Part shown: positions 2-61,800 of the stretch, in pieces
Layout of the letters: each line of letters starts with the position of its first letter
Position numbering within the stretch: position 1 is the stretch's first letter
DNA from: a virus
Virus record (IMG/VR): IMGVR_UViG_3300010354_000070
Location: 1-64,000 of that record
DNA: 64,000 nucleotides
Strand: one strand, 5' to 3'
Made by a program: the position numbers and the translations under genes
Notes under the pieces: model-generated
What the model was told of the DNA's origin: nothing
What the model saw: the letters and a program-made list of their open reading frames with translations, nothing else
Databases searched by the model: none

Positions 2-580
2 ATTGTTCCTAAACATATGGGAGGAACAGATGAAGATTGTAACCTCACATACTTAAATGTTAGAGAACATATCATAGCACATTATTTGCTATGGAAGATT
101 TATAAAAATCCAAATGATTTAAGATCTATGAAAATGTTAGGAGCAAATTTATCTCCATATCAAAGAAAAATAACAGGAGAATTTTGTAGGGATAATCAGA
201 TTGGCATTTTTTCAATTCCAATAGAAGAAAGAAGAGAATGGAATATAAAAGGAATAGAAACTCAAAAAAGAGATTATCTAAATAACAAAACTAAAAATTT
301 CTATTATTGGAGTACAGAAGAAGGAAGAAAAGAAAGAGCATCTCTTGGAGGTAAAAAAAGAGCATCCAAAGAATTTAGTTATTGGGCATCAAACGAAGGT
401 AGAAAAAAGAGAGCATCTCTTGGGGGGAAATCCCACAAAGGAAAAAGAGTTATGCATTTACCAGGAACAAAGGGATGGAAAAGAATACCACCAGAAGAAG
501 TCAATATAAAAATAAATGAAGGTTGGAAGTTTGGAACTGGAGAACAAACAACAAACTCTAAAATTAAGAAATCTTCCTAA
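2..580 (+). CDS. HNH homing endonuclease, 5' end beyond window
   Basis: Probable free-standing homing endonuclease, a DNA nuclease that spreads its own gene. The frame is open to the left edge, where it reads IVPKHMGGTDEDCN, the middle of an HNH motif; the catalytic first His would lie just outside, so the Met at 17 is not the true start. A downstream EHIIAH stretch matches the family pattern seen in the second HNH gene of this window (HHIIPRSMGGSDE... EHYICH). The C-terminal half carries two copies of a Trp/Arg/Lys-rich unit ending ASLGGK, resembling NUMOD-type DNA-binding repeats, and a tail containing KGWKRIPPEE. It is the only plus-strand gene, and its 3' end overlaps the end of the fractured gp41 gene by 17 bases tail-to-tail. 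Its position between the halves of a split helicase gene fits a homing role; the target site is inferred. Confidence 0.8.
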   Translation: MVPKHMGGTDEDCNLTYLNVREHIIAHYLLWKIYKNPNDLRSMKMLGANLSPYQRKITGEFCRDNQIGIFSIPIEERREWNIKGIETQKRDYLNNKTKNFYYWSTEEGRKERASLGGKKRASKEFSYWASNEGRKKRASLGGKSHKGKRVMHLPGTKGWKRIPPEEVNIKINEGWKFGTGEQTTNSKIKKSS

Positions 581-1196
581 ATCTAATTCTAACTTTGGTT
601 TCTGGATGAACACACCCGGCAAGACAGATATTAAGAGTTTTATTTGGAAGACCACCTTTTGTAATTTTATTAAAATATTCTAAATCAAACTCTATTTTAT
701 CTTCTTGCCTATGATAAAACTCATACCTTTCTATGTAATTATTCAGGTAATCATGACCTATATTATTATCAAAAGAAACTGCTAATGCATCAGAAAGAAT
801 ACTTGGAATTGCGTCTCTGTTCTTTTTATCATCTTTTCCATCGGCAATATGAATGGATTGCATAAGTGCCAAATAAATAGCACGATCACGACACCACTTT
901 TCTGTAGTATCCAATAACCATTTCAAATCTATAGGTGAATTATTTAATTGGGATATTAATTCACGAATTTCTTTGATTTCATTTTCATTTATATCTGTTC
1001 TATTTTCAATTTCAATTACCAATGATTCAATAGTAATTGCCGACCCATATTCTACAATGAACTTAACAATTTCTTCAAAAATAATTTTTTCTGCTCTTTT
1101 TTCATAATATTCTGGTTGTATAAACGGTATAACCTTTCTGGAATATTCTTCAATGAAGATTAAATTCCTTAAAATTGTTAGTTCTATTCTTTCCAT
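564..1196 (-). CDS. 41: Replicative helicase gp41, N-terminal half with split-intein tail
   Basis: N-terminal part of the T4 gp41 (DnaB-like) 5'-3' replicative helicase, which unwinds DNA at the phage fork with primase gp61. Residues 1-194 cover the N-terminal domain and linker and end GGLPNKTLNICLAG, the strand leading into the Walker A P-loop (T4 gp41 has a similar stretch ending LLAG before VNVGKS). The helicase sequence stops there. A Cys at 195 begins a 16-residue tail, CVHPETKVRIRFRKIS, then a stop. The ATPase domain is absent and must lie to the left of the window. The tail has the block-A pattern of an intein (Cys1, then Thr-Lys-Val), so this is read as N-extein plus a very short N-intein. 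The start overlaps the stop of the 2OG oxygenase gene (TAATG). It cannot be an active helicase alone. Confidence 0.85.
   Translation of the reverse strand: MERIELTILRNLIFIEEYSRKVIPFIQPEYYEKRAEKIIFEEIVKFIVEYGSAITIESLVIEIENRTDINENEIKEIRELISQLNNSPIDLKWLLDTTEKWCRDRAIYLALMQSIHIADGKDDKKNRDAIPSILSDALAVSFDNNIGHDYLNNYIERYEFYHRQEDKIEFDLEYFNKITKGGLPNKTLNICLAGCVHPETKVRIRFRKIS
567..614 (-). other. Candidate atypical N-intein (16 residues)
   Basis: Codes for the 16 residues CVHPETKVRIRFRKIS at the end of the gp41 fragment. The Cys follows directly on the conserved LAG of the helicase, at the P-loop, a favoured intein insertion point in DnaB-type helicases. The Cys-x-x-x-x-Thr-Lys-Val pattern fits intein block A. 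Ordinary split inteins have N-halves of about 100 residues; known atypically split phage inteins have N-halves of about 16-25. The matching C-half would be fused to the remaining gp41 outside the window. Identification is by pattern only. Confidence 0.7.
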
Positions 1197-1753
1197 TACT
1201 TATAATGTAAATATGATGTCAAAATATACTTTGTGTCACTTATTGGTGATTCACCAAGATGAGGGAATAACCAGAGAGGAGGAAATATAACCAATGTTCC
1301 CTTCTTAGGTTGAATTTCCAAATCTTTAAATATGGTCTTTCCACCTTCAGTTACATCATTAAGATACCACATAAATGACAAAAATCTACGAGAAGAAGCA
1401 TAATCAACAACATCAACATGAGTATCAAATCTATCCTCTCCACCCACATTATACTTTTTAATGCGAAATTGTTCTAATGCGTGTTCTTGTGGAAATACAT
1501 CTTTACAAACATACTCATAATATTTTTCTTTATATTCAAAGATTTTTTTAATAATATGATTATGAACTTGATTTACTTCAGCAGATAATTCACGATTTTC
1601 GGTCAAGTTAAATTGAGTAAAATTTGGTTTACCGTCATTATCAAATCTTTCATGATGCTCTGGAACTTGATCAAAAAGTGAAATTAAAAACTCACATATA
1701 TTTGGTTCTAAAGAGTTTTCATAAATTTGTATAAAATCATTTAATTCATCCAT
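1196..1753 (-). CDS. 2OG-Fe(II) oxygenase, prolyl 4-hydroxylase-like
   Basis: Likely iron- and 2-oxoglutarate-dependent hydroxylase of 185 residues with the double-stranded beta-helix core of the prolyl 4-hydroxylase family. Visible motifs: HVDVVD (the His-x-Asp metal pair), a following RFLSFMWYLNDV strand with EGGKTIF, and FPHLGESP supplying the distal His, followed by a Lys/Tyr-rich strand that would bind 2-oxoglutarate. This HxD...H order is diagnostic of the family; the substrate cannot be told. Such enzymes are common in T4-like cyanophages. It lies between uvsX (8-base overlap) and gp41 (1-base TAATG overlap), so it is co-transcribed and probably translationally coupled with replication genes. 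Confidence 0.8.
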   Translation of the reverse strand: MDELNDFIQIYENSLEPNICEFLISLFDQVPEHHERFDNDGKPNFTQFNLTENRELSAEVNQVHNHIIKKIFEYKEKYYEYVCKDVFPQEHALEQFRIKKYNVGGEDRFDTHVDVVDYASSRRFLSFMWYLNDVTEGGKTIFKDLEIQPKKGTLVIFPPLWLFPHLGESPISDTKYILTSYLHYK

Positions 1754-2747
1754 AACTAAATTCTTTCTTAGAAATTTCGTCCAATTTTTGCATCACTTCT
1801 TCAGTAAAATATTTTTCTGGATTTTTTAAAATTTCTTTTGCATAAAGTTTTTTACCATCAATTTCATAACGACCTGCTACATTTTTCCAAAGTTCACCAA
1901 GTTCTCCAAGTTCAAGTAATCCATAATATCTGTCAAGTCCTCTTTCATCATAATACAAACGAATTTGAACTTCTTGATTTTCTTTACTTAATCGTGACTT
2001 TTGAGTTTTTGCTCTGATGATATTTCCAATGACTTCTGTTCCATCCTTCTCTTTTGATTTTGAAAGATAAATGATTGTTGATGAAGCATATTGTAATCCA
2101 GATCCACCGCTCATTTGTTTGCCACCATAAAGAGACATTGAATCATAAGTATGATTAGTCACTATCATAGGAATGTTTGCTTGTCCCAATTTAAGCGTCA
2201 GCATACGAAAAGCACCTTTAATTAATTGGGCTTTTGTCATATCTCTTGAATCTTTTTCAGCAAGAGCATCCCCAATTTCTTTATTTGTTGAAAGCATACC
2301 CAAAGAGTCTAACACAAACATACATGGTTTGCGTTCATCCTCTTTTTTCTTTTGGTAAATATCAACTGCCTTAAGTGCCTTATTGCGAAACTCTTCAACA
2401 GTGACTACATTAATTACAACTGTTCTTTCAGTATCAATACCTCTACTTTCTAAAAGAGATTTAGTGATAGCAGCCTCAGTATCAAAGTAGAGACAGTAAC
2501 CATCGGGATGAGTATCAAGAAAGTTCTTAACCACTGCGATAGAGAAAAAAGTCTTTCCAGTAGAAGACTCTCCAGCAATAGCAGTAATCTTATTCCCAGA
2601 CACACCACCAAAAATGCTACCTGAAACCAATGCATTAAAAATATATGAACCCGTATCAACATAAGTTTCAGTTTCATCAATATTGGAAGCAAGTTGTATA
2701 TACTCTCCCCCAATCTCTTTAATAATATCATTTAAAAAAGTAGTCAT
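1746..2747 (-). CDS. uvsX: UvsX RecA-like recombinase
   Basis: Strand-exchange protein of the T4 RecA/UvsX family, 333 residues, which coats single-stranded DNA and drives recombination-dependent replication together with UvsY (23771-24202) and UvsW (split, 21131-23445). Walker A is GESSTGKT; the Walker B strand is CMFVLDSLGML; a MSGGSGLQYASS segment matches the DNA-binding L2 region. The gene is intact, with no intein, which is notable because uvsX is a known intein target in related phages. A strong ribosome site (AAGGAGG) lies in the end of the upstream 44-codon gene, and the two genes overlap as ATGA. Confidence 0.96.
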   Translation of the reverse strand: MTTFLNDIIKEIGGEYIQLASNIDETETYVDTGSYIFNALVSGSIFGGVSGNKITAIAGESSTGKTFFSIAVVKNFLDTHPDGYCLYFDTEAAITKSLLESRGIDTERTVVINVVTVEEFRNKALKAVDIYQKKKEDERKPCMFVLDSLGMLSTNKEIGDALAEKDSRDMTKAQLIKGAFRMLTLKLGQANIPMIVTNHTYDSMSLYGGKQMSGGSGLQYASSTIIYLSKSKEKDGTEVIGNIIRAKTQKSRLSKENQEVQIRLYYDERGLDRYYGLLELGELGELWKNVAGRYEIDGKKLYAKEILKNPEKYFTEEVMQKLDEISKKEFSYG

Positions 2748-2878
2748 TTTTCCTCCTTTTGTTTATGCGATAAATCTACTTTATAGTTCCAAAGTTTAAA
2801 ATATAAAGCACTATCTCCACCAAGTCTTAATGCACTTATAATTGTATCTAATTCTTTTTCGTTAATTGGCAATTCCAT
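2744..2878 (-). CDS. Small conserved-position protein between gp43 and uvsX
   Basis: A 44-residue open frame beginning MELPINEKELDTII. It is tightly packed: its ATG overlaps the polymerase stop (TAATG), its TGA overlaps the uvsX start (ATGA), and its last codons contain the AAGGAGG ribosome site of uvsX. This packing makes it very likely to be translated, and it may couple uvsX translation to gp43. The protein is mixed charged and hydrophobic, with a probable N-terminal helix and a LYFKLWNYKV strand, no signal peptide and no recognised domain. Function unknown. Confidence 0.75.
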   Translation of the reverse strand: MELPINEKELDTIISALRLGGDSALYFKLWNYKVDLSHKQKEEK

Positions 2879-5382
2879 TAATTAAAAAATAGGTCTAAAT
2901 TTACTGTTTTTTCTACACTCCACCCAAAAGTATCCAGAATTGATTTTAATGGTTCCAGAAAACCTTTATCAAATTGAGTATCATAATCTATGTATTTCTC
3001 CAGTCCAAGTTCTTTTGGAAAATCTTGAATAAAAGAAATTACATTTTCTTGTATAATGTTTGGTTTTTTTAAATAAAGATATTTAATCTTTTCTCCATTT
3101 TGTATAAGAGAATATTTTTTAGTGAGTTTTTTTTGCTTTATATAATAATTGAAAAGTAAAGACCCACGAATATGAATTGGAGTTCCTTTAGAATAAATTT
3201 GCTCGGAAGAATACTTCTTAACATCGGATGCTGTTCTTGGAAATGCTATCTGCTCTGGAGGTAATGTTTTAAACTCTTTTCTGCAATTAGATACGAAATC
3301 TATTATATCATCTTCAGTCCCTTTCATCAATAACTTCAGACCATCCTTAATCATTTTACGGCAAGGTGCTGGAGTAGAAGATTTAATTGCTTCAATACCC
3401 ATAATTTTGAGTTTTGGTTCTTCATAACGAACACCTTCACTATCCCATACATTCATAATATAACGCTTTTTGGCAGTCCATATCGCACGTTCTGCGATAT
3501 TTTCACGCTTCATATGCATCTTTTGTTCGTATGCATTTAAATATTCTGCTAATTCTTGATAGGAACTTTCAATATACTTTTCAAGTTCCATTGTGCATAC
3601 TTTGTCAAGAAAATTTACAATACTTTCAATATTTTTTTCTTTTCCTTTATATACAGTTTCAACCAAGGAACCCATATTAAGATAAACAGAATCTGTATCA
3701 GAAGCAATGACGTAATCTACTTCTTTTGTTTTAAGAATTTTATTCAGATATTGATTTAGTTTATTTTCAATCCATCGAATAGCAACTTGCCCTGAAAGAG
3801 TAATTGCTTCTGCGTTTGCCAATTTATAATAACGGAAGTATTGATTCCCAATCGCACCATAAGCAGAATTCAATTGAATTTTTCTTGCCATTTGGATATT
3901 ATTGCACCTGGCAATCTCTTTTTCTAATTCTTTAGTTTTTTTCTTTTCATATTCTTGCTTTGCTGCAAGCATCTTCTTTTTATAAATGGTGCGATCATTA
4001 TAAATCTTTTCCATCAATTCTGGTAAGAAACCACGAACATCCTTACGATACATAGCACCATTTGCACATATCGCATAATTTTTATACAGTTCAAATGAAA
4101 GATTTTGATTTAAAACTTTATCTACAGTAATTGTAGGATGTCTCTCATCCAAAAGAGTTTCTGGACTTATATTAAATTCCATAATCAAATGTGGATATAG
4201 AGAATTTAAGTCAAAATTAACCACCCAATCATACATTCCAGGAACTGGTTCCTTCACATAAGCACCAGCATACTTATCACTCTTTTCGGATTTTTCTTTT
4301 GGTGGAATTACAATATTTCTTTTTTTTAAATAATTGTAAATAATAGTATCCCACATACGAACTTGATAAAATACATCTTCATAATTCACTTTGGCGTCAT
4401 ATGCCATTGTAATAGCAAGTTCAATAAGTTTCATCTTGTCTTCTAATCGGTCAACAAGTTCTACGTCTTTTATGTTATAAGAAACGAACTTTTCCCATCC
4501 TTTTGTATAAAAATCTTTAAAGGTATCAAATTCAGAGTGATCTAATTTTTTTTGATTCAGTTCAACTTCGGCAATATAATCCAAACGATATGATTCTTGT
4601 GCTTTATAAGTAAATTTCTTATAAAGATCCAAGTAATCAAGTTGAGAAATACCCTTTATATCATATGAAATATGCTTACGCCCATTGATATAAACCTCAT
4701 TTTCTCGGATTAAACCCCATGGCGAAAGTTCTTTAGTTGCTTTTTCACCCAAAACTCTATAAAGACGACGGGCAAGGTAAGGAATATCATATAACTGAGA
4801 ATTCCATCCACTCACAACTTCTGGAGTATTTTCATCAGTCATCCACCAATGTATGAAACTATTCAGTAAGTCCCTCTCATTTGTAAATGCTTTATATGTT
4901 ACATTATTTTGTTTTGGTTTATATTCACCAAGTCCCCAAGTAATAATGTTTTTTGTAGTATAATCTTGAATTGTGATAAGTAAAATTTCTTCAGCAGCAG
5001 ATTCTACATCTGGAAATCCATTCTCAGATGCCACCTCAATATCTATTGTTATAAGTTTAATTTTACTAATATCAAATTTTATTTCATCTTCTGAGTATTT
5101 TTCAGAAATATACTGACAAACAAACCTTTCATTACCATAAATTTTAAAATTCTCTACACCATCATATTTTTTAATAAATTCTCTACAGTCACGAACAGAT
5201 CCTGGTTGAATTGCTTTTACATATTCTCCATTTAAAGTTTTATATTCAGTTTCAATATTTGATGGGACAAAAAAAGTTGGAGAAAACTTTTCTCGGGTCA
5301 TAAAATGTTTTCCATTTTCATAACCACGAACTAAAAAATAATCCCCAACAGATTGAACGTTTGTGTAGAAATTAAGTGGCAT
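2878..5382 (-). CDS. 43: DNA polymerase gp43, family B
   Basis: Replicative DNA polymerase with 3'-5' proofreading, 834 residues, near the usual size for T4-like cyanophages (T4: 898). Exonuclease motif I is DIEVAS at residues 114-119; polymerase motif A is DLNSLYPHL at 391-399; motif B is KIQLNSAYGAIGN at 501-513; motif C is SDTDS at 561-565, with the two catalytic Asp. All catalytic residues are present and the frame is uninterrupted, without an intein. The last residues, LDLFFN, fit the hydrophobic C-terminal tail that tethers gp43 to the gp45 clamp. The start overlaps the stop of the 88-codon gene upstream by one base; the promoter at 5968-5996 probably serves it. Confidence 0.97.
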   Translation of the reverse strand: MPLNFYTNVQSVGDYFLVRGYENGKHFMTREKFSPTFFVPSNIETEYKTLNGEYVKAIQPGSVRDCREFIKKYDGVENFKIYGNERFVCQYISEKYSEDEIKFDISKIKLITIDIEVASENGFPDVESAAEEILLITIQDYTTKNIITWGLGEYKPKQNNVTYKAFTNERDLLNSFIHWWMTDENTPEVVSGWNSQLYDIPYLARRLYRVLGEKATKELSPWGLIRENEVYINGRKHISYDIKGISQLDYLDLYKKFTYKAQESYRLDYIAEVELNQKKLDHSEFDTFKDFYTKGWEKFVSYNIKDVELVDRLEDKMKLIELAITMAYDAKVNYEDVFYQVRMWDTIIYNYLKKRNIVIPPKEKSEKSDKYAGAYVKEPVPGMYDWVVNFDLNSLYPHLIMEFNISPETLLDERHPTITVDKVLNQNLSFELYKNYAICANGAMYRKDVRGFLPELMEKIYNDRTIYKKKMLAAKQEYEKKKTKELEKEIARCNNIQMARKIQLNSAYGAIGNQYFRYYKLANAEAITLSGQVAIRWIENKLNQYLNKILKTKEVDYVIASDTDSVYLNMGSLVETVYKGKEKNIESIVNFLDKVCTMELEKYIESSYQELAEYLNAYEQKMHMKRENIAERAIWTAKKRYIMNVWDSEGVRYEEPKLKIMGIEAIKSSTPAPCRKMIKDGLKLLMKGTEDDIIDFVSNCRKEFKTLPPEQIAFPRTASDVKKYSSEQIYSKGTPIHIRGSLLFNYYIKQKKLTKKYSLIQNGEKIKYLYLKKPNIIQENVISFIQDFPKELGLEKYIDYDTQFDKGFLEPLKSILDTFGWSVEKTVNLDLFFN

Positions 5383-20664: not shown

Positions 20665-21138
20665 CTATTGAGACTTATAAAGGTCCTCAAGTTTTTTACG
20701 AGCATCTTTAACAGAAGAAATATAACCCATCTTAGAAGAAGGTTTTACTTTACCAGAGACAGAAGAACTAATAGCATCTATAATATCTTCATCATTACCA
20801 CAAATATAATTTTCATATATTGCTATAAGTTTATCATCTTTAGTTTCTGTCATTGTTATAATTTTATCCATACGAATAATAAAAATATCATCATTTGAAG
20901 TTTCAATCCAAGATTTTGCTTTTACAAACATACCTCTTTGATTGGTAATTATTTTCATTACTATTGGATTTTGGAGAATAACAATTGGGTCTCCATCATT
21001 TTCATCTGTCATAGATACAGCAAATATTTCTTCACCAGATACTAGTTTAATGACAGCATAGAACTCTTCACTAACAGGACTTTGTTTTTTAATTTCTTTT
21101 CGTTTTCTTTTAAAAATATTCTTAAGTAGTTTAATCAT
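20665..21138 (-). CDS. Beta-rich protein, third member of a small paralogous set
   Basis: A 157-residue protein of unknown function. A basic N-terminus (KRKRKEIKKQ) is followed by AVIKLVSGEEIFAVSMTD, VILQNPIVMKII, FVKAKSWIETSNDDIFII and IITMTE: the same strand-SGE, NP, aromatic-W, acidic turn, strand layout seen in the products at 5382-5648 and 5611-5946. The fold resembles a small Sm-like barrel, by inference only. The C-terminus has a Ser-rich linker and a helix. It overlaps the C-terminal uvsW fragment by eight bases, so it is co-transcribed with it. Confidence 0.65.
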   Translation of the reverse strand: MIKLLKNIFKRKRKEIKKQSPVSEEFYAVIKLVSGEEIFAVSMTDENDGDPIVILQNPIVMKIITNQRGMFVKAKSWIETSNDDIFIIRMDKIITMTETKDDKLIAIYENYICGNDEDIIDAISSSVSGKVKPSSKMGYISSVKDARKKLEDLYKSQ

Positions 21139-22027
21139 TTTTGATTGGTATATTTACTATATCGTAGTTAAAGTTTTCTTCATTATAAATTTTAATTCTT
21201 TCAATTAAGTGATTTAAGGTATAATTTTTTCTTGACTTGTAACTAATATCATCAGCAATGTCATATAATGTTGCTTTTGTTTTCTGATTACTTTTTCTTA
21301 GAACTCTTCCTATTGATTGTAAATTACGAACTCTAGATTTTGAAGGTGAAGCAAAAATAACATTATGTAAATTTTTAATATTAATGCCAGTGCTAAAAGT
21401 TCCATAAGACGCAACAATAATTGCGTCATTTTCTTTTTCTGTAATTTCTCTTACTTTTTCTCTATCATCAACATCCACTCCACCATGAATAAAGAATATT
21501 TTACGGTTCATAATATTATTACTTTTATTTATTAACTCATATAAAGGCTCTCCGTGTGTTTCTACACGATTAAAAAGAACTAGAGTGTTTCCTTTTAAAT
21601 CTAAACAAAGATTTTTTATGAAATTATTTCTTTTAGAATGATTAATCAAATATTGAATTTCATCCTCATATGTTTCAAATCTATTTGGTTGATGTTTGAG
21701 TAATAAAACTTTAATATCAAGAGTAGCAAGATGACCTTTTTTCATAAGTTCATCTGTGTTAATAATTTTATATGATGGTCCAAATAATCCTTCTAAAACC
21801 CATTTATGAGTTTGGGACCCATCAAGAGTTCCAGTAAATCCAAATCTATATTTTGCATTATCACATTTAGTCATTATAGATACTAAGGATTTACTTTTAA
21901 AAATGTGACATTCATCACCAACTATCACATTAAATCTGGAAAAGTATTGCTTGGGGAGTTTGTAAATGGACTGCCAAGTGCTGCAAATTACATTTGGTAT
22001 TTGGTGTTGTATTTTTCTAATTTTCAT
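21131..22027 (-). CDS. uvsW: UvsW helicase, C-terminal fragment
   Basis: Second part of the T4 UvsW superfamily-2 helicase, which remodels R-loops and recombination intermediates. It begins MKIRKIQHQIPNVICSTWQS, where the helicase sequence resumes, then shows motif II (VGDECHIF), motif III (GFTGTLDG), motif V (ASYGTFSTGINIKN) and motif VI (QSIGRVLRKS). Motifs I and Ia are missing because they are encoded in the separate fragment at 22693-23445. Together the two pieces cover the full protein with only a linker at the break. The start lies inside the HNH gene end (11-base overlap), so it is probably translated by coupling. No C-intein ending (His-Asn) is visible before the helicase residues. 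Confidence 0.9.
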   Translation of the reverse strand: MKIRKIQHQIPNVICSTWQSIYKLPKQYFSRFNVIVGDECHIFKSKSLVSIMTKCDNAKYRFGFTGTLDGSQTHKWVLEGLFGPSYKIINTDELMKKGHLATLDIKVLLLKHQPNRFETYEDEIQYLINHSKRNNFIKNLCLDLKGNTLVLFNRVETHGEPLYELINKSNNIMNRKIFFIHGGVDVDDREKVREITEKENDAIIVASYGTFSTGINIKNLHNVIFASPSKSRVRNLQSIGRVLRKSNQKTKATLYDIADDISYKSRKNYTLNHLIERIKIYNEENFNYDIVNIPIKND

Positions 22028-22736
22028 TTTTAATTTTTTTAATAATTGTATTTGATAATGGTCCTCTTTTTGGAATTTTCCCAGAAAGAATGTAATTGAA
22101 TGTAGATAAAGAACAATTAAGTACTTGGTCGCAAATTTGTTTTGTAGTCAAATCATTATCAATTGAAATCCAAGTATTACCAAAATCTAAACTATATTCG
22201 TACCTATACTTTTTACACAAATAATGATTTTTCCCACTTGTTTTTTCAACTTTTTTCTTAACAATGTTTTTATCTAGCATTGGATTATTTGTTACAAAAA
22301 TATTTGTTCCATTTTTTTCTCTATTTGATATGGTTTTTTCATGAATTGATTTATTTTTAAATGGGGAGTTTATTTTTGACCATTCTTTCAGTTCTTTAAT
22401 TCTTTTTTCTTGTAAAATTTGATATAATCTACTATTATAGTTAAAATTTGTTTTTATTGTTTTCATACTCATAGCATTAATAGCACAAAGCATTTTATAA
22501 TAATCTTGATTTTTGGTGAATTTTGTTAAACATAAATGACATATATAATGTTCTTTTGGCGTTAATTTTATAATATTTTCTTTTTCGTCACTTCCACCCA
22601 TTGATCTTGGTATTATATGGTGATTTTCTCCTTCAGAAATTGGCGAATTAATTCTATTGATTATTATATTTTTATACCAATTTAAATATTTGTTATTTTT
22701 TAATGGTTGATAACCATCTATCGTCAATTTCATCAT
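22017..22736 (-). CDS. HNH homing endonuclease inside split uvsW
   Basis: Homing endonuclease of 239 residues. The HNH nuclease signature is HHIIPRSMGGSDEKEN followed by LTPKEHYICHLCLTKF, giving the double His, central Asn and final His of the beta-beta-alpha metal site. An N-terminal NKYLNWYKNIIINRI helix precedes it, as usual in this phage family. The C-terminal TKQICDQVLNCSLSTFNYIL resembles a helix-turn-helix DNA-binding unit (NUMOD type), followed by a basic end. It is in the same direction as uvsW and overlaps both halves (44 and 11 bases). It is of the same family as the left-edge endonuclease. Likely cause of the uvsW fracture. Confidence 0.92.
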   Translation of the reverse strand: MMKLTIDGYQPLKNNKYLNWYKNIIINRINSPISEGENHHIIPRSMGGSDEKENIIKLTPKEHYICHLCLTKFTKNQDYYKMLCAINAMSMKTIKTNFNYNSRLYQILQEKRIKELKEWSKINSPFKNKSIHEKTISNREKNGTNIFVTNNPMLDKNIVKKKVEKTSGKNHYLCKKYRYEYSLDFGNTWISIDNDLTTKQICDQVLNCSLSTFNYILSGKIPKRGPLSNTIIKKIKNEN

Positions 22737-22848
22737 CTTCGTTCAATTCTCTTGCTAATTTTTTCTTGTTATTTATGAGATTTATAGTTTGATTGCCATC
22801 AAACTTATATTGATTGCCATCAACAGTAGTTACATAAACCGATATCGG
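22693..22848 (-). other. Hint-like extension of the uvsW N-fragment
   Basis: Residues 200-250 of the fragment: PISVYVTTVDGNQYKFDGNQ, then INLINNKKKLARELNEDDEI and a short end. The strand - D/G turn - strand - KKLARELNEDDEI layout resembles the block-B region of Hint (intein) domains, where a DD/DG hairpin is followed by a lysine-rich turn and 'ARDVKVGDYL'-like strand. But there is no Cys at the junction and no block A; a Ser at 202 is the only candidate nucleophile. It could be an intein remnant, part of a split intein, or unrelated sequence carried in with the endonuclease gene. Confidence 0.45.
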
Positions 22849-23445
22849 TTCTCTTTCCTTTCCACCATAAATTTTGTGGCAATATGAACCAACATCCCAA
22901 CCATAATCTAGAAAATCTTTATAAATTTGCTCTACGAGGGATGTCGTTGGCACAATTACGAGAATATTTTGTGACTTCTCAACGTAATACCTCACAATTC
23001 CATAAATCATCAGAGATTTACCCGAAGCAGTTGGAGATATTAATAATTTTCTATTATGTCTTAGAGCGTCGTATACTCCCTCAACTTGATATTCACGGGG
23101 AGTATGAGAACAAATAGAATTTAAATAATCCCTTACACCTTCTTTTGAGATATGTTCGTTAACTTCAAAAGGAAGACCATAATACTTATTATCACGAAAC
23201 TCATAAGTATAATCGTGATTTTTGCAAAAACTTATAACTTTATCTAAAAGACCGATATAAATTTCTTTTGTATTTACATTAAATAAGTAAATTACTCCAT
23301 CCCACCATTTGTTCTTATAGGCAGGAGAGAATTTAGCGTTTGGAACTTCAAATTGAAAAGCATCTCTTAACTCATAATAGATATGAGGTTCTGTTTCAAT
23401 TTGCAAATATACTTCATTCTTTTTTGATATAATCAAATGGGACAT
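22693..23445 (-). CDS. uvsW: UvsW helicase, N-terminal fragment with extension
   Basis: First part of UvsW, residues 1-199, matching the T4 protein from its small N-terminal domain through PREYQVEGV (Q motif-like), Walker A LISPTASGKS at 136-144 and motif Ia VIVPTTSLVEQ, up to KIYGGKERE. Residues 200-250 do not match UvsW and form an extension ending DDRWLSTIKK. The DECH motif and the rest are on a separate gene 666 bases further. No strong ribosome site precedes the ATG; a hairpin lies directly before it. The fragment binds neither DNA nor ATP productively on its own, so activity would need association or splicing with the second half. Confidence 0.9.
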   Translation of the reverse strand: MSHLIISKKNEVYLQIETEPHIYYELRDAFQFEVPNAKFSPAYKNKWWDGVIYLFNVNTKEIYIGLLDKVISFCKNHDYTYEFRDNKYYGLPFEVNEHISKEGVRDYLNSICSHTPREYQVEGVYDALRHNRKLLISPTASGKSLMIYGIVRYYVEKSQNILVIVPTTSLVEQIYKDFLDYGWDVGSYCHKIYGGKEREPISVYVTTVDGNQYKFDGNQTINLINNKKKLARELNEDDEIDDRWLSTIKK

Positions 23446-52869: not shown

Positions 52870-55800
52870 TCATAAAATTTGATTTATTCTTAAATTTAAA
52901 GCTCCAATATTTCTTAAACCATATCCTCTTCTTTGAATTATTGGATAAGTTGATAATCCAGAATTATAAGAAAAAGTTGTGATACCAATACTAGATGTGT
53001 ACCCACTAACTCCTATAGATATAGGAGAAGGTGAGCGACTAAACCCAGAAAGTTTTCCCCAAGAAAGTTTTCCTACTGGATAATTTATTATTCCTGTAGT
53101 AGCAATTCCTATAGTAGAAGTAGTAGATAATATATTACATGTTAATATTCCAAGAGATGGAGTATATGCATTTACATGATAAATATTATTTAAAAATGAA
53201 GTACTAATAGAAACTATATCATTATCTCCAGTATTTATTGAAGTAACACCATTACCAACATTTGTATTTAAAACATAAATTGGATATCCAACTAACAATG
53301 ATGCCGGAGAAGGTGAAATAGTAAATTTAATTGCTAAAGGAACTCCTATTCCTACAGTTGTAGCAATTCCAACAATAGAAGATTCAAATCCCTGTATCGT
53401 TGTTATATTTTTTATAATTTCATATTTAGTATTATTTGTAGATACCAATACTTGAGGAGGAGATGAATTTGTGTATCCAAATCCAGGATTTGTAATAATT
53501 ATTGGAGAAGTTACTGTTCCTGAAGTAGACACTGTTGCATATGCAGATGCTCTCTCTGAAATATTTTCTCCATTTTGATTTTTTATTAATCTTGGTGAAG
53601 AAATTATTAAGGGAATAGTAGAACCAGTATATCCACTACCACCATCAATTATTTCCAATGAACTTATAGTTCCTGACAAAGATACAACTGCATTTACTTT
53701 TGCTGAAATTGGGTCTGCAATCTGATTTGCAATAAATGCGTCGAATTTAATTGGATTTTGATTTTCATAATTAAATAACTCGATACTATCTACAAAAATT
53801 TCGGGAGAAGAAGAGTTGAAGTCTTTTATAATGTTTGCTGTTGGGTAAATTTGTGGTTCTATGGAATTTCTAGATTTCGATACAAATTGCTCTTTTATTA
53901 TTAAATCGGACTTTTGTTTTGTCCAATAAACTGGTTTTTCAATATTTGTATCAATTCCTTGATCTATATATAGATTTGTTTCTATACGATCAGATCCTAC
54001 AATTTCATATACAATTCTAGAATTTTGAGTAATAGTATTCTCAATAAAATTATTATTACTAAAAACTTGTAAATCATCACCAATTTTTATAGTTTCATCT
54101 GTTTCTATTAATTGACTATCTTCATCTCTTGTTCCTCGATAGAAAAATATATCAACTTTGTCATTTGGTTTTGGTGGAACTGAAAAAGTAAAACTAGTTC
54201 CACCAGTAAATTGATATGCATCTCCAGATTTTTGAAGAACACCATTTATAAAAATTATAAGTAGTGAAGAAAAATTAATTAATTGAGAATCAGCATCACT
54301 TTGATCTAATTCAAAACTTAATAATTCATTGTTATAATAAAGTGGAAATCTAGTTCTAACTCCATCTTGATATAATTTAATTGAATCAATATAATCTATT
54401 TCACCAAACTGCCAAGCACAAAAAGAATCATTAAAAGTTTCTAATACTGTAAGTCTAAATTGTTCTGGTGGGGAAGAAAATCCTCTAGCAGTTACTAATC
54501 CTACTGGAGTAAATACATCTCCTATTTGAAATCCATATCCGGGTCTAGTAATTTTAAAAGATGTAACTTGAAACAAGGTAGACCCAATACCTACTGACGT
54601 TGAACTGGCTCCAACTTCAACATTTAGTAATAAACCTTGTCCGGTATCAGTTGTTGTACCGATACCGAGTCTAGATACACCAATAACAGGTAAATTTTCA
54701 TAACTAGGTGGAGATACATTAATTGTTGGATTTATATAACCAGTCCCACCTCCTATTATTGTAAAAGATAAAGTTCCTCCAGCTCCGACAATTGCTTTAA
54801 CAGTAGCTGCCATTCCGACATGATTACTTTCAGTAACAGCAACAGAAACAGGATCTCTATAACCAGATCCAAATGAACCAGAAGTTGTTCCTATTCCAAT
54901 TGATACTATAGATCCACCAACACCAATAACTGCAGTTACAGATGCCCCAACTAATGGTGCGTATCCTAATCCAGATGAAGAACCTAAAGATACAATTATT
55001 CCACCTCTAGGTAATTGATTTTGATTGACATCAAAGGGTGATGTATAAACACTACCATCACTACTAGTAATACCAGTAAAAGTAATACTTGTAAGACCAA
55101 CTGGTTCTGTTATAAAATAATTATTAGAAGAATTGTTCAATGTCGTTGGAGTTTGGAAAATATTGTTAATAAAAACAATACCATTTCCCCCACTAGTTCC
55201 TATACCAGTAGTGTTTATTCCGCGAGTTGTAAGAGTAAATGTTTGTTTTTTCCCAGTAAATTCTGTAGAAATATCATCATATAATCTATTAGTTTCATAA
55301 TTTTTTCTTAAAAATACTCTTCCATTAAAACTAGATCTAATTCTGGGTAAATTACTTGGTTCTGGTTCAATAAAGTCTAATGAATTTCCTCTAGGTGCCT
55401 CGGTAAAGAAAATTTCATTTCCCACTATATTATATGACCCACGATATATTCTTACCAAAGATGTATCAGTGTGAATACCAGAAATTGATCCCAAAAATCC
55501 TCTTTTAACTTTTACTAATGGAATATCCCCAATAAACGAAATGGGACCAACATTTGTAGTTCCAACACCCACATTTTCCACTTTCATATACTCATTATCA
55601 ATTTCTAATATATCATTAAGAGAAATAGAACTAATTCCACTTAATGCAAAAATAGTTTTATCTTCATTAATTTGACCTCCATTTTGAGATAAAGTATGTT
55701 TTATTGAAGTATATGTTATTGGATATTGAGCTATATTATCTATAGTAATTAAAGTCTTTTCATTTTTTTTATACATTTCTATTTCGTGAGCATTTCCAAC

Positions 55801-58800
55801 CCCAACTGATGTAAAAGTAACTCCTATCCCCTGGAAAGCATATTCGGGTTTAGTTGATAATCTAAAAACATCATTGCTATCCTTTATAGCCCATAATTTA
55901 TTAGGCAAAATGTCAGTTACAATTCCAAGATAATTCGAAGTCTCACCGATTCCCATTGGAGAAGATCCAATGCCCGTAAAAGTTGATTTTGGTGTGTAAA
56001 TTAATTCTTCTCCTGTACTAAAAAAGTGATTTGGTATTGTAAATTTGCCAGTAGATAGATCAAGAATAGATGCATCAGAAGGATTAAAAGTTTTTGAAAA
56101 AATAGAAACATTATTATAATTCAATTGAAAATCTAATTTTTCATTAAATATGCTATTTAATCCATAAAAATATGAATTTTTAAGAGAATCGACAACTGTT
56201 CCGTAACTCAAAGATGGTGGTTCGTTAATTAAATCTTGTTCTCTATAAAAACTTTCATTAAATGAAGAAATTTCTAACTTTTCACTAACATATTGATTTG
56301 GATAAAATTTGAGTATAAATTTTTCGCCTGAAATTTCAGATCCAAAAGTACCTATACCGTTAGTACTTCCTATAGATAAAAATGGATACTGCAAGGAATA
56401 TGTATCAATTTTATCGTAAACTGTCATTACTTGATGTATTGCACTTGTATTTCCTGTAGAAATTCTAACAAGTGATTTTACCGATGAAAATGTATTTTTA
56501 TCTAAAGAAATAACTGAAGTTGAACCAGATCCAATAAAATTAGTATAATTGGATGTATAAATCGCTGTTTTTTCATTTCCTGCAATTTGTCCGGAAATAA
56601 TAAATCTATGAATGCCTTCACCCAAAGAAGTTGACCCAAAACCAACAGTTTTAGATCTAATTTTTATGTTTTGTATTGAAGTATTGGTATAATTTAAAGA
56701 TAAAATTCCATTTGGTGAAATAGATGCTCCAAATGATCCAATAAATCCAAAACTAGATTCATTAATACCACCATCAAAATAATTTTCGGCAATATAAGTA
56801 TTTGATCCATCATGAGATACATATATTTCAACATAATTCATATCAGAATTATCTGAAGTAGCAATATGAATATTCGAATATAGAGATGAATATTGTAATG
56901 AATTTACACTAACTATTGTGGTTGTTATTCCACTTGCAACAATTTTATTGTCATTTATTAGATCAATAAATCCAATTTTTTTAACTGTGGATATTCCTAC
57001 ATTAAAGTTGTTAAAAGTACTTTGTAATATTTTAATATCATAATTAGAATTTAAAGCATCGTAAGGATCAAAACTCAAATAAAAATTTAAATCTTCATTT
57101 ACATAACCTTCTATTTCAGCCAGTGAAGATTTTTTATTATCAAAGGAAAAATAATCAGTTTTTGCTGTTGAAACTCTTCCTTTTTTTAAGGTATAAATGT
57201 CATTATCATTGTTCATTATAACAATTTCATCAAATTGAATTTGATCTGTAACAATATCCCTTGTTTGTATTAAAAATCTATTATATCCATTAACAGTATT
57301 TAAATTTAAAATATTTGATGTGGAACTTCTTTCATCTTCAATACTAGAAAATGATGAGCTAATATCATCAATTTCTAAAACTCTATTGGTTTTGCAAAGA
57401 ATATAATCAGTTAGTTTTACGTTTTTAAACTTAAGAAATTTTGATTTATCTGCAAAAGTATCAATATCTAAAACTAAATCAAAATTATTAATTGAATCTA
57501 CTCTATTTTCGCTAATATAATCATTAATAAGAGAAATGCTTGAACTTCCAGTTTCTATTCCAGATAGAAATGAATTTTCTATTTGAGAATCCGAAAAATT
57601 TTTCAATCCGCTTGGATGAAGTATATTGTTTACTGGAGTTACGATTTCATCCCATGTTTTAGTACTTTTTATACTATAAGAAAGATTTTGATAATAATCA
57701 TTATTTGGGATTACTTGAAAATCATCGTTTAATTTTCCAAAATTATTTTTCCACCCTATATTTTGTATATTAGAATAACTTATATTATATCTACCTTTCG
57801 TTGATTGTTGATCGTTAATTGTTGCTTCTACTAAAGATTGAACTCCTCTAATTTTTTCATTTTCTGACAAATTATAAGAACCAACAACCCTAACAAAATT
57901 AGTATTAGAATCGGTAACTGTTAAATCTCTCAAAATAAATCCATTCCCATTATTTGATAATAATTTTTCACCTATAAAAAATGGAGAAAATATTTGTTTT
58001 ACTTCAAATTGTGGATAGTTATTGAATTTAATTATATTTGCATATGATTCCTGTAATGTTTTTGCAATTCCTGGATTTTTGGTATATTTGGATATATCAT
58101 ACTCTAAAATTGCAGGATTTAAGTTAAAGTAATTTTTTACTGTAAAAAATTGATATCCATGATCTGAAGAATTAAATCCTTCACCGTTATTATCATTTTT
58201 TTGAATTCCCTCAACAAATATTTTTTCTCCAACAAAAAATGGAGAAGTTGTGAATCCAAGTATAGGGGTAGTAAGAATACAAGTTACAATTCCCAAAGAA
58301 GAATATTCAACTTTATTAATAGAAATCCCGTTAGAATTATTAATTGCTCTGATGGTAACTGGTTTTGTTGGCAATCCTTTCGGTGGTGTCTCAATAGTTA
58401 CTGATTGTATAGATGAACCAACTAATTTTGGTTTGATAAATCCAGAATCTATAACATTTCCGGTATCGCTATCTATACAAATTAAATCTGGAGGAGATGT
58501 ATAATCTTTTCCACCACCAACTACTAAAATACTCTCTATAGAATTTGCTGAAAAAATTGATATTGATTTTGGAATAGATGCGGATGGTCTTAAAGTTTTG
58601 TCAACTAAGTATTCAAATCCCTCATTTATAATTCTTTCTTTTTTTATTTTACCTATTGTTTTTGATATTGGAATAGCGAATAATCCCAACCCAGTTGTTG
58701 ATCCTGTTCCAATAAATATTGGAAGTTTTTTATATCCACTTCCACCGGAAGAAAGTTTTAATTTAGCAACTCCCCCAAATTCTGTATTTGATTTAGTTGT

Positions 58801-61800
58801 GTATTCTAAATTATCACACTCACTTTGTGTATATGAAAATTTTTCAGGTATAGATTTTAAAGAAACTGTAAAATTTGTGGATCCAATTCCATTTACAAAA
58901 TAAGTACCATTATAATTACTATTAAATGAAATTATTTCGGAATTATTGATAACCTCAGTATCAGAAGTGCATATAAATCCAGATTTTTCTATATTATAAT
59001 AAAGTTTTTCTGGCGTTTTTTCTGAAAAATTTAATGTTAATGATGCTTCTGAAGTAACTCCTACTGTACCAAACCCAATAATAGAAAAATTATTTTCAAA
59101 TCCATCGGATATAAATTCTTTTGTAAAATTTTTATCATAATAAATTTTAAATTTGTATCCTGTTAAAGATGGATCAGATAAATTAAATACTAAATTATTA
59201 TTTTTAATTATTGGAATTTGTGGATTTATTAAACTTAAAGTTTGTGTTGAAGATCCTGTTCCCCGAATATCAACAACAGTTGGTGGATCTTCAAAACAAT
59301 CAGAATAAGTTTCGCAAAGACTTATTTTATTTTTGTCTATTTTATAAACAAAATAAAATCCAGTATTTAATCCAACTGCAATAGAACCATATGATTGATA
59401 TAATACTTTATCTCCGGTTTTAAAATTATGTGATAATATTGAAATAGAATTTAGAGAAGTATTTATTCCGGAGGGTGAAATAGATATTGGATCTATTAAC
59501 AAACTTTGAGTATCAGGATCAAACTTTACAAAAATTGAAGTTGACGTTCCTATACCAACAGATATATTTGGATTTAAACTTATAGAAACTAAATCTCCAT
59601 TTCTTAAATTGTGAGAAGTTGAAACAGATACTAAAGCATTAACTCTTGTGCTATCTGCATAAATTTGTTTGTAGTTTGTTTCTATGGAATAAAAATAATT
59701 ATTTGGACCAGAAAAAGGAAAAAATAAACCACTCGACACTGTTGTAAGACCAACATTTGTAACTATACCAATAAAATCTTTTGATTTTTTTATTACATAT
59801 ACTTTTTCTGTATTTTCATTTAAAATAGTAAAGTTTGAATTTGTATATTCATCATATACCGTTATCCCAACTCCAGATATTTTTTTCAAAATCGCTTCTT
59901 CACCATTAATAAATGAATGATTCGGAAGAAAAATACTTTGAGACGGAATAAAAATTTTATAAGTAGTTATTCCAATGCTGTAATTTTCGTATGAACCAAG
60001 TCCTGCTGTAGTTCCTATTCCTATTGATTGCGATGGATTAAAATAAATTTTATTATTTTTTTTGGATTCAAAATAGTTTGTTTTTTTATTGACTGTAAAA
60101 TAATCTGGCAAATAATAAACAGGTGATGATTGGGAATGAGAAGTGCCATTAGGTGATCTAGATACTCTCACAACTCCATAATTTGGATATAAATTTAATA
60201 TTGAAAATATTTCATCATTTATTTTAATACTACTTCCAATAGAAATATTTTGAGGAATTGTAGTCAAATACATATCAAATACACTTCCAGTAACAGAATA
60301 ACTTGGAATAGTATTGGCAACCCCTGCAATATGTGAATCAACTTCAATTTGATATGTTCCATTTAGATCAGTAGACTCTGTTGTTAAACCAGATATTATT
60401 ACATTATCTTTATTTAAAAATTCATGATAAGGGGATACATATATCTTTATTTTTTCTCCATTTTCCCAAATAATTAAAGAATTTGAATATGCATTTAACG
60501 ATGATTTTATGTCAACTATATTTTTACCTTTCAATTCAGATACACTTGCAGAAATTCCCCCTCCACCGGTTTCACTATCATCAAATATTAAATTATCTCC
60601 TATTGAATAATCATTACCAAAATTAATAATTTTAATATCATCGACATAACCAGAAGTTACGGATTCAATAATCGTTTTTTGATCTATTATTTCGTTAGAC
60701 TCAACCAAGAAATCATAGTCCGAAAATAAATCATCAACTTTATATGGAAGAGTATTTCTAATCAATGAAGAATTATTAAAATCAAAATTTTGATTTAATA
60801 ATAAATTTTCATCTAATATAGATGACCTATACTTATTTCCAATAAAATATGGAAATTTGCCAATTATACTTCCGGATGCGTTAGTATCGACTGTTGCAAA
60901 ATATGCATAAACTCCATTTGGAAACTCTGGTGTTTTAGTAAATCTCCCATTGAATTCGTCCAAATCACCACTCTCAGAATATTCGTAATCTTCTATAAAA
61001 GAACCATATGGGAATAAGCTAACATCAGGTCTATTTGTAATGTTTTTTTGTGTATAACTTGAATTTATTTTTTTAATTGGAGAATTATTATTGTTTGGAT
61101 CGGAATATCCATAAGGTCCGTAAATTGGATTGCCATCATATGACCACCCAATAATTGGTGAGTGTTTAGAATTTATAACAACTTCATTATCATCTAATTG
61201 TATAAATCCATCATCTCCAATATTATTTTTTATGTTTTCCGAATAACCAGCAATAAAATATCCTAAATTATTATTTGTTTCTACAAGAATCTCACTTGCC
61301 GGATCTCTATAAAATGGTCCTTGCGTTCCATATTTGTATGAAATATTGAGATTAAGAGATCTAACATTAGACTGAAATACTGCATTTTTTCCTGAATTTT
61401 CTACTATAATTGATGTACCATTTTCCGAATACCCCGATCCGGAATTTATTATTATAACACTAACAATTTTATTGTCATTTAAAACAGGTCTCAATAAAGC
61501 ACCAGATCCATTTCCTTTTACAATTAAATCTGGAGTAGAAAAGTAATTTTCTCCACCATATTGAATTTTTACATTTATAATTTTTCCGTTAGATATTATT
61601 GGAAAAAGTTGAGCATTAGTCCCATTTTTAACTAAAATCGATGGTCTTTGATGAACGTTTATTATATTTGATCCATAATTATTTCCATTTTCATAAACAT
61701 ATACTTGGGATATTTTTCCTCTAATAATTGGAATTGCTGAAATATTGTTACTTATTCCTGTACTTCCAACTCCAACTAAACTGTATTTTACGTCCAAAGT

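Follow-up and report, generated by a model that had tools for sequence, protein, structure and literature searches.

A predicted 16-residue N-intein in the gp41 helicase gene of a viral contig, and its split, contiguous and endonuclease-free relatives

The gp41 locus at the contig edge

The stretch analysed here, hereafter the window, comprises positions 1 to 64,000 of the viral IMG/VR record IMGVR_UViG_3300010354_000070. At its left end lies a fragment of gp41, a T4-type replicative helicase gene of the cyanophage kind, with a short C-terminal tail, which we interpret as the N-terminal half of a split intein, next to an HNH-like open reading frame (ORF) on the opposite strand (Table 1). The gp41 part ends ...NKTLNICLAG and is followed by CVHPETKVRIRFRKIS and a TAA stop codon, exactly as the initial annotation had read it. 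The gp41 of Synechococcus phage S-SRM01 was 79.5% identical over residues 1-195 (tblastn against phage isolates), and the gp41 alignments ended at residue 194/195, precisely where the tail starts. Cys at position 1 of the tail directly follows a conserved extein residue (LAG/C, the slash marking the junction).

Table 1. Coordinates of features in the window and in the three-piece locus L024 (dN and dS, nonsynonymous and synonymous divergence; pN and pS, nonsynonymous and synonymous differences per site; IntN and IntC, N- and C-intein; aa, amino acids)
Sequence	Feature	Position	Strand	Remarks
Window	HNH-like homing endonuclease ORF	2..580	+	Convergent with gp41; homologues at same position in relatives
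Window	N-precursor ORF, 210 aa	564..1196	-	194 gp41 residues, 16-aa tail and TAA stop
Window	Stop codon of gp41-N/N-intein precursor	564..566	-	Read from the sequence
Window	Predicted N-intein, 16 aa, CVHPETKVRIRFRKIS	567..614	-	Cys1 is the predicted nucleophile; tail and site common in IMG/VR; pS > pN
Window	N-extein, gp41 residues 1-194: the DnaB-like N-terminal domain, ending with the residue before the Walker A loop	615..1196	-	79.5% to S-SRM01 gp41; dN well below dS
Window	Fractured UvsW	21131-23445	-	
Window	HNH ORF overlapping UvsW N-half	22017-22736		
Window	UvsW N-half with tail of ~51 residues (PISVYVTTVDGNQYKFDGNQTINLINNKKKLARELNEDDEIDDRWLSTIKK)	22693-23445	-	
L024	gp41-N + IntN1	595-1266		
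L024	HNH	1253-1930		Antisense to gp41
L024	IntC1 + ATPase + IntN2	1965-3083		
L024	GIY-YIG-like ORF	from 3143		
L024	IntC2 + gp41-C	3901-4320		

The N-half, its tail and the endonuclease ORF are observed directly in the window, and their conservation in comparison with relatives. When the window was compared with each representative of the set described below, codons 1-14 of the tail showed 0.43 synonymous differences per site against 0.084 nonsynonymous differences, so the tail is maintained as protein, under purifying selection. The gp41-N part likewise had dN well below dS against relatives. Recurrence of the tail at one gp41 site is far beyond chance.

The record is linear, 70,806 bases long, and base 1 of the window is base 1 of the contig. 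No gp41 ATPase half or C-intein was found in the whole record at E ≤ 10 with a C-intein and ATPase probe; this negative is uninformative because the contig starts at window base 1.

Relatives and the C-terminal half

An exact scan of IMG/VR for G-C-V-H-P-[DE]-T-x-V matched at least 119 stretches, about 110 of which were gp41 with the AG/C junction at the window's site. A profile search found 300 encoding stretches, of which the best 80 were kept, and 98 distinct loci remained as the representative set after removal of duplicates. The initial annotation had called such very short N-inteins rare. In this phage group they are common, a single scan giving 300 encoding stretches. By state, 67 loci were split with an HNH gene, 3 split with a partial HNH gene, 11 split without HNH match, 15 contiguous and 2 undetermined. 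Every one of the 93 representatives whose N-half was readable had the junction [LIMA]AG/C, and IntN was 14-21 residues long in the split relatives, with a mode of 16, the length in the window.

The C-half was observed in the relatives. Wherever enough DNA follows, a C-intein of ~125 residues ends in HN and is followed by T-GVGKS and the remaining gp41. As had been predicted for a partner left of the window, the terminal HN and a Thr at +1 before GKS were found in 98 of 98 loci; the window's own C-intein would lie beyond the contig edge. Joined exteins of L009, L028, L074, L116 and the three-piece locus L024 could be aligned along their whole length to the uninterrupted gp41 of S-SRM01, with 0-2 gaps (L009: 86% identity over 459 columns, 1 gap). 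An uninterrupted gp41 at another place in the genome would have contradicted the initial annotation. With a composite gp41 probe, six related records, 106-234 kb long, each showed two gp41 places and no more, one for residues 1-195 and one for residues 190-425 on the same strand, and no intact copy was found.

The nearest relatives of the window by gp41-N, L009 and L179 among them, matched it at 94 of the last 100 residues and were all split, and those with a fully readable second intein site, described below, had it uninterrupted; a two-piece helicase is therefore expected for the window phage. Outside IMG/VR, a strict C-intein DNA pattern had no match in 84,980 prokaryote genomes, a weak negative. 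Isolate phages contained no gp41 intein of the window type, only relatives at 30-36% identity in UvsX, TerL and other genes. Pfam did not recognise the intein of this family.

Identity of the intein

An AlphaFold model of the contiguous L069 intein, built from 46 relatives, had a pLDDT (predicted local distance difference test) of 96.7. It shows a strand at residues 7-13 and another at 19-24, and the family break falls at about 16-18 in the loop between them. Its best PDB match by Foldseek was VidaL (6vgv; template modelling score 0.88, E 1.5e-12, 30% identity), and the next-best intein had an E value of 9e-8. VidaL was also the best sequence match among solved inteins (phmmer, E 3e-12). In VidaL the IntN has 16 residues and the split follows strand beta2, a position termed S1 (PMC13014065). 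The best fold and sequence match together with a break at the published VidaL split site indicate that the gp41 gene of the window is a fractured gene and carries the N-half of an atypically split intein of the VidaL kind; the initial annotation had likewise read it as an atypical split intein.

VidaL (6vgv/6vgw) and the window family share an IntN of ~16 residues, the split after beta2 (S1) and dependence on Cys1. They are only 30% identical; the comparison covered fold, sequence and split position. The VidaL host is a T4-like helicase. The gp41-1 intein (PDB 6qaz, 6riz) also has a T4-type gp41 host and is split in nature, but it is a different intein with a canonical 88 + 37 split, and its site, RSG[YF]/S-x-SDV, lies 160 residues downstream. 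An identity with gp41-1 was ruled out for the window, whose tail has 16 residues at LAG/T and not the 88-residue IntN at RSGY/S-x-S. The atypical split inteins AceL/GOS TerL and PolB16 OarG also have a short natural IntN (15-25 residues) but interrupt other host genes; the TerL inteins are split at S2 (PMC13014065), and PolB16 is cysteine-less with Ser1/Ser+1 (PMC10189870).

The HNH ORF between the halves

The initial annotation saw an HNH gene on the ATPase side and expected a homing endonuclease gene between the halves. The window ORF is open at the left end of the contig, with about 30 codons of its 5′ part off the contig, and it shares 17 bases at its 3′ end (564-580), in antisense, with the N-intein gene. 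Homologous ORFs were 80-88% identical over the full 192 residues, antisense and at the same position in many relatives, and a complete homologue is present in L009. Pfam found no significant domain on the truncated window ORF; its reading as an HNH protein is suggested by the HHIVPKHxGG motif of complete relatives. In 67 of the 98 representatives an endonuclease gene separated the two halves; of the 70 loci scored for orientation, 69 had it antisense to gp41 (exception, L169). This HNH gene likely encodes the homing endonuclease by which the cassette spreads. Mobility is supported by L069 and L116, because their inteins are 98.7% identical in DNA while their N-exteins are 76% identical.

Dassa et al. 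reportedly described, in 2009, fractured genes in which a split intein is accompanied by a free-standing homing endonuclease. As in those, the gene of a conserved phage enzyme is interrupted within an intein in the window family, and an endonuclease gene occupies the gap. It differs in that break and endonuclease are at S1 near the N-terminus and not at the usual S0/endonuclease position, in that the endonuclease runs opposite to gp41 at every scored locus except one, and in that contiguous and endonuclease-free alleles of one intein coexist.

Several loci carried additional ORFs. Same-strand cargo ORFs (e.g. MNSQEIRALQEAYMEVVEG...) were seen between IntN and the endonuclease or C-gene in L006, L036, L033, L063, L013, L100 and L155, so that the gap in the fractured locus acts as an insertion hotspot. 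At L052:4612-6449 the split site contained a different same-strand ORF of 456 residues without HNH-family match. It is possibly another type of endonuclease and, if so, would suggest independent invasions of one split point. S-SRM01 (L002) had a free-standing HNH endonuclease (3433-4014) immediately upstream of its intein-free gp41, 42-49% identical over the HNH part to the cassette endonucleases.

Splicing model and alternative explanations

We consider, with a probability of about 0.95, that the minus-strand gene at 564-1196 encodes the N-precursor of a naturally split VidaL-like intein in gp41 before the Walker A loop (LAG/TGVGKS), whose trans-splicing partner lies left of the contig. Two precursors would be made, gp41-N with IntN and, from a second gene, IntC with the gp41 ATPase part. 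The 16-residue N-intein would bind the ~125-residue C-intein and form one Hint fold, after which attack by Cys1, transfer to Thr+1 and Asn cyclisation would yield a complete gp41, about 459 residues long; the intervening HNH gene would drive homing of the cassette. In L009, 684 bases separate the N-stop from the start of the C-gene and 563 are available in the window, so that the predicted start of the C-gene is some 120 bases beyond the left edge of the contig.

Some points weigh against this model. The C-half of the window's own genome would lie outside the contig, and an exact scan with the left 50 bases of the window gave no overlapping contig. Some relatives are contiguous or endonuclease-free, so the layout left of the window, including the predicted C-half, is deduced by similarity. 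Splicing activity and the cleavage site of the endonuclease are predictions.

Such a window, displaying one half only, would also be seen if an endonuclease had broken gp41 and the halves worked without splicing as a non-covalent pair, the tail being a new C-terminus. Free-standing endonucleases can break phage genes that remain functional, as in Aeh1 nrdA. However, a non-covalent pair would have no need of Cys1, the C-terminal HN and Thr+1, which are conserved in every representative, nor of the complete Hint domain that contiguous alleles have at the break point, and we regard this explanation as very improbable.

Even smaller, and about equal, is the chance of either of two kinds of decay. 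Endonuclease insertion is able to inactivate genes, and a wrecked gp41 left as a pseudogene, with another intact helicase at work, would agree with a window that shows no C-half; against this stand the low dN of gp41-N, the low pN of the tail and the two halves without intact gp41 in the six long related records. Inteins can also decay, and with splicing a prediction here, the intein might be degenerate and its cassette kept by homing alone. Its catalytic positions are invariant, however, and failure of splicing should be lethal because gp41 is a core T4-type replication gene.

Three states of one intein

Among the relatives of the window allele, the same intein was found contiguous, split with an endonuclease and split without one, sometimes in near-identical genes. 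The contiguous L069 reads CVHPETKVKIRFRKIS-WWIEKETT..., while the split L112 reads CVHPETKVKIRFRKIS, a stop codon and, further on, M-WIEKETT...; the L069 sequence (ATTTCTTG-GTGGATTGAA) is the exact join of the flanks in L112. The contiguous L126 and L094 and the split, endonuclease-bearing L028 were 95-99% identical in DNA across the N-extein, C-intein and available C-extein. At the break of L110, which is split and endonuclease-free, the sequence reads TTGATTATGGAATTT, and endonuclease-bearing alleles such as L112 read TTGATTGTGGAATTT. The L110 pattern is as expected of a deletion scar from endonuclease loss. In L025 and L189, stop and start codons overlap.

Trees were made from the intein only and from the first 150 C-extein residues. 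The intein tree required about 11 changes between contiguous and split, at least 4 of them forced by well-supported branches, and on it the label for endonuclease-free split alleles had to change 7 times or more. The trees do not fix the direction of change, because the VidaL outgroup sits on a very long branch.

A helicase in three pieces

Nine representatives had a second N-intein at the end of the ATPase fragment, at RSG[YF]/ or a position close by. A split intein of the gp41-1 type, or a relative of it, was present as the second intein at RSG[YF]/S in L024, L155, L163, L057 and L055, and L069/L122 and L007 had a second split intein with site 1 contiguous. A second intein together with a split site 1 gives a three-piece helicase. 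The complete three-piece set spans 595-4320 in L024 (Table 1), where the second intein matched gp41-1 (PDB 6riz) with E 7e-52 and the predicted product was 78% identical to S-SRM01 gp41 over all 459 residues. The second gap of L163 contained a GIY-YIG-like ORF and, at about 0.7-1.6 kb to the right of IntN2, an ORF resembling a DNA methyltransferase (MILCDLPYRTTACSWDT...).

HNH genes at site 1 were found in 2 of 8 loci with a second intein and in 56 of 72 without (Fisher p 0.005, in a small sample and with kinship ignored). Neighbouring inteins are reported to interfere in homing (PMC10643990), and the scarcer site-1 HNH fits such interference. No description of a natural phage helicase in three pieces with two split inteins was found in the open papers searched, key subscription papers being outside that search, and its novelty is unproven.

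Taken together, it is probable that one gp41-site intein interconverts naturally among three states, near-identical alleles differing, and that a subset of sister phages makes a three-polypeptide helicase through two unrelated split inteins, one VidaL-like and one gp41-1-like.

Other features of the window

The UvsW gene is also fractured (Table 1). Its C-half starts at 22027, and the tail of its N-half was 71-75% identical in four other phages (L198-L201). This break was rejected as a second split intein, having no Cys1 block, no HN C-intein and no Hint similarity by profile comparison; the tail had no intron match in Rfam. On the minus strand, 52870-63999 is a single open frame of more than 3,700 residues that runs past the right end of the window and encodes a very large repetitive virion-type protein.

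Implications

Taken alone, the window's case joins a known kind, and its value is in its population. The origin and reversibility of split inteins have mostly been argued from single examples, and here there are pairs of nearly identical alleles that differ in state. If the interconversion is real, the window allele is one state of a system in which the origin of a split intein could be followed directly. The three-piece gp41 would be a natural counterpart of the ordered joining practised in synthetic biology, with two orthogonal split inteins, of which one is of the gp41-1 type, linking three fragments, and the roughly 78 distinct natural split inteins with a short IntN are a large resource for protein labelling tools.
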